Notes under the pieces: model-generated
The model's database searches: none
Seen by the model: only the letters and a program-made list of their open reading frames with translations
Told to the model about the DNA's origin: nothing
Made by a program: the position numbers and the translations under genes
Shown here: positions 35,757 to 36,837 of the stretch, in pieces
Layout of the letters: the number at the start of each line of letters is the position of its first letter
Numbering within the stretch: the stretch's first letter is position 1
Source: Arenicellales bacterium
GTDB taxonomy: Bacteria; Pseudomonadota; Gammaproteobacteria; BMS3Bbin11
Assembly: GCA_029287915.1 (NCBI GenBank)
Contig: JARFQE010000119.1
Location: 1-36,837, forward strand
DNA: 36,837 nucleotides
Direction of reading: 5' to 3'

Positions 35757-36326
35757 TCACCAGAAGCCAGGATAGGAAAAAGGCATCCATTCATTACCAC
35801 CGCCGAATGGGAATCCACCAACACCTCCTGATCCTGGCCAGTAATCACGGCGATAGCCTGGATAAGCAGACCGGTAACCCGGTCGGGAATAAGGAAATTG
35901 TTGATTACCATAATAACCGTACCGGTTTTGCTGTCTGTTGCCGGGATAAAACGGCATTTGCTGCCCAAAAGCCTGGGCATCCGGATACCGCAAATCACTA
36001 CCACCGGTGACTGATGATGAATCCTGTGAGGTAATATCTTCTGCTGAATAACCAAACTGTCCAGTTCCTAGAGTTTCATCTTCATCTAGAGGCGGGTATT
36101 TAGATTCATTTATTTCATTATCTGGTTCAGAAACGACTTTATCACGCCAGGTATTATCCTCGGATGAATCCTGATTTCTATCATCAATTAAAGGTTTGTC
36201 AGACTCCAGCCAGGGGTTCTGTCCTGATGCAGGCAGAATTGAGAATCCAGACAGCAACATTACTGAAATGACAAAAGGAATCCTGTAATTAGCAATAAAA
36301 GTGAAATGCATATTGGTTGAGTTCAT
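35757..36326 (-). CDS. Secreted Gly/Tyr/Pro-rich low-complexity protein
   Basis: The 189-residue product has a signal peptide (about 1-35, ending LPASGQ). An acidic disordered segment (about 40-112) follows, with many Asp, Glu and Ser. The C-terminal third (about 118-189) is dominated by Gly, Tyr, Pro, Asn and Arg, with stretches such as NRYGYYGNQQFPYSRPGY, YPGYRRDYWPGSGG and GFPFGGGNEWMPFSYPGFW. This composition resembles sulfur-globule envelope proteins and other secreted self-assembling proteins, but no sequence family is certain. It could instead be a surface or matrix protein. A 136-base gap separates it from the next gene; nothing recognisable is in that gap. Confidence 0.7.
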   Translation of the reverse strand: MNSTNMHFTFIANYRIPFVISVMLLSGFSILPASGQNPWLESDKPLIDDRNQDSSEDNTWRDKVVSEPDNEINESKYPPLDEDETLGTGQFGYSAEDITSQDSSSVTGGSDLRYPDAQAFGQQMPFYPGNRQQNRYGYYGNQQFPYSRPGYRSAYPGYRRDYWPGSGGVGGFPFGGGNEWMPFSYPGFW

Positions 36327-36351: not shown

Positions 36352-36805
36352 TCATTTCCCTGGCGGCTTTAGCCTGATGCCACGCCTGGAATTTGGATTT
36401 ATCTTTTTCTTAATCGATTTCCTCGTAATTTTCTTCTGAGCTTTTTTAGCTGCCTTTTTAGTTTCCTTTTTAGCTTTCTTTTTAGCGGATTTCTTTGCCT
36501 TTTTAGCCGACTTCTTCTTTTTCGCCTCTTCCGCCTTACGTGCCTCTTCGGCCTTGCGCGCCTCTTCCGCCTTACGTGCCTCTTCGGCCTTGCGCGCCTC
36601 TTCGTCCCTGCGCGCCTCTTCTTCCCTGCGCGCCTCTTCTTCCCTGCGCGCCTCTTCTTCCCTGCGCGCCTCTTCTTCCCTACGCGCCTCTTCTTCCCTA
36701 CGCGCCTCTTCTTCCCTACGCGCCTCTTCTTCCCTACGCGCATCTTCGGCCTTCCGCGCCTCTTCGACCTTGCGCGCCTCTTCCGCCTTGCGCGACTCTT
36801 AGGCC
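36352..36805 (-). CDS. Coiled-coil EEARK-repeat protein, C-terminal part (cut by the right edge)
   Basis: The frame ends at the TGA at 36352-36354 and runs right to the contig edge. It carries about 15 six-residue repeats of the form EEARRE or AEEARK (about 36523-36798), then a Lys/Ala-rich stretch (EEAKKKKSAKKAKKSAKKK) and a basic tail ending RLKPPGK. This predicts a long charged helix, as in TolA-like or other envelope coiled-coil linkers. An in-frame TAA at 36799-36801 and a Ser at 36793-36795 differ from the repeat by one base each and look like read errors next to adapter sequence. I therefore treat the true gene as continuing beyond the edge. Its family cannot be stated. Confidence 0.72.
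36601..36744. repeat. Tandem 18-base repeats, eight near-identical copies
   Basis: Eight contiguous 18-base units with consensus TTCTTCCCTGCGCGCCTC fill this interval. The first has TTCGTC, the later four have CCTACGCG and the last ends ATC. They encode the EEARR repeat on the minus strand. More diverged units flank both sides (36532-36600 and 36745-36805). Near-identity suggests recent copy-number change, and it may also explain why the assembly stops here. Confidence 0.9.
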
Positions 36806-36837
36806 CTGTCTCGTAAGCACCTCTCCGCGCCCACGGG
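36806..36837. other. Adapter-like sequence at the contig end (Nextera transposase end, with errors)
   Basis: The last 32 bases match the reverse complement of the Illumina Nextera read-2 transposase adapter. The exact CTGTCTC start is followed by CAC, TCTCCG and GCCCACG in the right positions. By my alignment 26 of 32 bases agree, and most mismatches replace A or T with G or C, as expected for low-quality read ends. This is very unlikely by chance and is probably not genomic DNA. Confidence 0.85.

Follow-up and report, generated by a model that had tools for sequence, protein, structure and literature searches.

The window, that is, the whole stretch of 36,837 bases that was analyzed, is the entire contig C14, one of the 139 contigs of a 2,779,853-base draft assembly, and the contig therefore ends at position 36837. 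The features that lead up to this end are the gene next downstream of an AcrB-type RND pump gene, a C-terminal fragment of the pump itself, the 18-bp tandem repeat within which the assembly breaks, and 32 terminal bases (CTGTCTCGTAAGCACCTCTCCGCGCCCACGGG) of foreign origin (Table 1).

Table 1. Features at the right end of the window
Feature	Positions	Strand	Basis
Gene next downstream of the pump gene, 189 aa, without a Pfam match	35757..36326	-	Gene order shared with congeners G001 and G003
C-terminal fragment of AcrB-type RND pump, 148 aa: repeat and Lys-rich tail ending in RRGIRLKPPGK, then stop	36352..36798	-	Translation, congener comparison
RRGI(R/K)LK-like terminus of the pump	36352..36400	-	
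18-bp tandem repeat coding for (K/R)xEEAR, site of the assembly break	36523..36805	-	Repeat analysis, translation
Last bases before the adapter, C-to-A at 36795 and 36801, the second giving an almost certainly false TAA at 36799-36801	36795..36801	-	Repeat-unit comparison, stop absent in congeners
Nextera read-2 adapter read-through, reverse complement, 6 mismatches, not genomic	36806..36837	+	Adapter alignment, contig-end census
Segment resembling the 19-bp Tn5 mosaic end (15/19), following the insert and starting with CTGTCTC	36806..36824	+	Adapter alignment
Segment resembling the read-2-specific arm beyond the mosaic end (11/13)	36825..36837	+	Adapter alignment

An interrupted pump gene and its repeat

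Elsewhere in this genome the repeat is matched only at the beginning of contig C132, where a pump gene, represented by its N-terminal side, runs off the contig in the same (K/R)xEEAR units. Its product has a full ACR_tran domain (PF00873 over residues 48 to 1087, E 7.9e-152), and the gene upstream encodes a HlyD-type partner (HlyD_D23/HlyD_3), the combination of domain and adjacent membrane-fusion partner that identifies an AcrB-type pump. While the Pfam match and the partner gene are shared with the AcrB/AcrD/AcrF family of RND pumps, the long C-terminal repeat and the Lys-rich RRGIRLKP tail lie outside the Pfam model and set this pump apart.

In two congeners the gene is uninterrupted. The pump of G001 (C30:36182-39778) is a contiguous open frame of 1303 aa, and the two genes directly after it are homologous to the 189-aa gene and the 257-aa DUF4412-like gene of the window; that of G003 is likewise contiguous, with an open frame of 1281 aa and the same gene order. 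Both carry pump, repeat, and RRGIRLKP tail in one open frame without a stop, and the tail encoded in the window is 59% identical to that of G001 over 66 aa. The window fragment is the C terminus of the C132 pump, the two parts being contiguous and in frame in both congeners and followed by the same genes. This is confirmed by distant relatives, whose pumps also terminate in an RRGI(R/K)LK peptide. Given the gene order and the single open frame of the congeners, C132 and C14 are neighbors, linked via the shared repeat, and the window edge falls within one pump gene. Among the fetched stretches, the 18 bases that directly precede the adapter had no second occurrence, and no direct-overlap join to another contig was found.

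As assembled, the array measures 278 bases, to which the C132 side has to be added, and common short reads are shorter than the array as assembled. Contigs from two further assemblies (L221 and L252) also terminate in the array of this pump gene, which fits a break caused by the repeat. On the first of these (L221:3660-3835; JARFQI010000140.1, coordinates agreeing with congener G005:C119), the contig end cuts the pump gene within a degenerate repeat that contains several in-frame stops and lacks adapter; either noise or a decayed tail may account for it. The other phases of the repeat in the window contain long frames at 36399-36836 on the minus strand (145 aa) and 36540-36836 on the plus strand (99 aa). 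Both are spurious by-products of the repeat that partly enter the adapter, and gene callers may report them.

The tail of this RND pump is long and of low complexity, and its length and make-up are very variable, yet it closes with a conserved RRGI(R/K)LK-like terminal peptide. Such a terminus is found in the window and at eight further loci (L222, L226, L228, L229, L233, L236, L248, and L253); the relatives that have it include Thiotrichales, Chromatiaceae, and Sedimenticola. Conservation of a terminal peptide past a diverged linker suggests a possible docking or sorting function. To our knowledge, no such function has been described for this type of pump terminus, which may merit separate study.

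Nextera adapter at the window edge and at other contig ends

The Illumina Nextera read-2 adapter (CTGTCTCTTATACACATCT followed by CCGAGCCCACGAGAC) and the terminal bases of the window are alike in sequence, in outward orientation, in starting at the first base of the adapter, and in lying flush with the contig end. An ungapped alignment of the edge to the read-2 transposase adapter, taken as its reverse complement, gives 26/32 matches, while the best of all other placements on both strands of the window reaches 19/32. The binomial probability of such a match is 4e-11 (one placement, 25% identity). The read-1 arm fits poorly, its top score being 18/33 in a different register. The edge thus combines mosaic end, read-2 arm, outward and flush placement, and Nextera library chemistry, as expected for read-2 read-through. 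TruSeq, small-RNA, P5, P7, and MGI adapters fit the edge no better than chance. The edge copy differs from the adapter in its six mismatches over 32 bases and in stopping before the index, whereas exact copies occur elsewhere in the same assembly.

We scored both ends of every contig for the Nextera adapter (278 ends). Fifteen ends carry it, namely this edge and 14 others on C2, C3, C27, C32, C34, C37, C55, C59, C71, C74 (both ends), C108, C115, and C126; most copies are exact, and all 15 face outward. Eleven are of the read-2 type and three of the read-1 type, and one, truncated to 15 bases, stops short of the distinguishing arm. With a score of 17, the edge stands clear of the maxima reached over all ends by 20 shuffled adapters (1.5 to 6.5), inward-facing adapters (5), and reversed adapters (4). 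When the 19-base mosaic end was searched for in the genome with up to 3 mismatches, it was found in 13 places (10 exact, 3 with one mismatch), all of them at contig ends, while the reversed mosaic end gave no match under the same conditions. The arm CCGAGCCCACGAGAC is present exactly at nine places in the genome, each adjoining a mosaic end.

Several of these ends continue into further library sequence. On C115 the adapter is followed by the index TTAATAGCAC and then by ATCTCGT, the start of P7; 10-base indices follow it on C2 (AGGAGTCGAG) and on C34 and C71 (TGCAATGAAT). The end of C27 (G000:C27:1-135, L062) consists of the read-1 adapter, the index GTAAGCCTAA, and P5 sequence with a long run of poly-G behind it; such a run is the mark of two-color Illumina chemistry. 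At least four different i7 indices are present at the adapter ends (CACGGCTA.., TTAATAGCAC, AGGAGTCGAG, and TCTTACG..), which suggests that several libraries were co-assembled. C55 and C16 overlap, with 3 mismatches, over the 145 bases that precede the adapter on C55; past this overlap C16 carries different sequence where C55 has the adapter, so that in this case the adapter is seen directly to replace genome at a contig end.

The original prediction had been made from the sequence of the window and held that the 32 terminal bases align to the reverse complement of the Nextera read-2 sequence with 26 matches. That alignment was reproduced, and the proposed check of the contig end against adapters singles out Nextera read-2 as the only one that fits among those compared. 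Independent support for sequencing adapter at the edge comes from the 14 other ends, several with index and P5 or P7. Positions 36806 to 36837 are confirmed as leftover library adapter, an artifact and not bacterial DNA.

Origin of the edge and competing explanations

Relative to the adapter, the edge carries T>G at 36813, T>A at 36816, A>G at 36817, A>C at 36821, A>C at 36828, and A>G at 36836. The predicted bias of these mismatches toward G or C holds for five of the six but carries little weight alone: all six template bases are A or T, for which chance alone gives two-thirds (P ~ 0.35). Finding all six at A or T bases is itself mildly unusual (P = 0.0055). No other adapter copy among the 15 in the assembly is as degraded as that of the edge, and because the other ends show 0 or 1 mismatches, a single noisy read has to be assumed here, a point against the adapter reading.

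Just inside the adapter, positions 36795 and 36801 read C on the plus strand in all 15 preceding 18-bp units and A in the last one, both changes lying at most 11 bases from the adapter. The second creates the in-frame TAA on the minus strand, in the KAEEAR frame. Comparison with the 15 preceding units bears out the original prediction, which had noted two C-to-A departures from the repeat and the resulting stop. Since the pump gene is contiguous and open in two congeners, this TAA, which makes the gene seem shortened, is almost certainly false, as judged by comparison of sequences. Read-end errors that become more frequent toward the end of one read are a plausible explanation for both C-to-A changes and for all six mismatches.

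We consider it very nearly certain that the terminal 32 bases are untrimmed read-2 read-through, left at the tip of a contig whose extension failed at the 18-bp repeat. A short tagmented fragment would have ended at about 36805, inside the repeat, and a read would have passed through it into the read-2 adapter and escaped trimming. The assembler, unable to cross the array, would then have kept the adapter as the contig tip, while the true genome would go on through the repeat of the pump gene and then into contig C132. The adapter match, the 14 further adapter ends, and the contiguous gene in the congeners are observed; that the repeat caused the break is what we infer from them. The placement of the edge at a repeat, also predicted, is supported by the C132 piece ending in the same repeat and by the gene being intact across this point in two congeners.

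The edge could be an adapter artifact and both C-to-A changes nevertheless true strain variants, giving a pump with a shortened tail in part of the population. The adjacent inner units (36739-36774) vary too, and in-frame stops in the repeat are also seen at the contig end of congener G005. That example is a contig end as well, however, and the changes in the window lie next to an adapter copy with 6 errors in 32 bases. Past the stop, the repeat and the conserved RRGIRLK terminus are still encoded, and G001 and G003 lack the stop; we regard strain variants as very unlikely. A broader form, in which the stop and nearby changes at the array edge reflect real population variation, with the charged C-terminal repeat existing in long and short forms, seems very unlikely. 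Contigs of other genomes likewise break or carry stops in the (K/R)xEEAR array.

That the terminal bases are genuine pump-gene sequence resembling an adapter by chance is highly improbable. The six mismatches and a flank that is certainly genomic to about 36794 would be compatible with it, but the probability per placement of ~4e-11, with the next 32-mer of the window far behind, the exact adapter at other ends of the assembly, and a frame that breaks at the edge where the repeat stays open in the congeners all speak against it. An outer, inner, or mosaic end of a real Tn5/IS50-type transposon inserted in the pump gene is the least credible explanation, extremely unlikely in our estimation: the first 19 bases match the mosaic end as listed in Table 1 and the inner end at 14/19, but the natural outer end fits worse (12/19), the match continues past the mosaic end into the synthetic read-2 arm, where a natural 19-bp end would be followed by IS50 DNA, and most of the 14 other contig ends pass from the mosaic end into synthetic read-1 or read-2 arms and indices.

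Adapters in public data

Adaptors are among the common contaminants of sequence submissions (PMC10898089). Like other adaptor contamination of public assemblies, the edge is a short contig-end remnant that got past trimming and screening, and it differs from it in nothing of kind; its copy is degraded enough for exact-match screens to miss. It is an artifact of a well-known kind and not a real feature, although our literature search found no paper devoted to Nextera remnants at contig ends. Its relevance is for quality control only, in that the adapter and its noisy neighbors yield a false stop and mask a pump gene split between C14 and C132. Gene calls, short open reading frames, repeats, and "motifs" at contig ends in such data should first be checked against adapters.

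In IMG/VR, the exact read-2 and read-1 Nextera adapters are each present in more than 100 stretches. Among the matches listed, 243 of 245 lie within 200 bases of where the fetched stretch ends, facing outward. Two IMG/VR contigs carry an exact Nextera adapter in their interior (L330:4953-4986 and L392:2154-2186), and these are likely chimeric joins.
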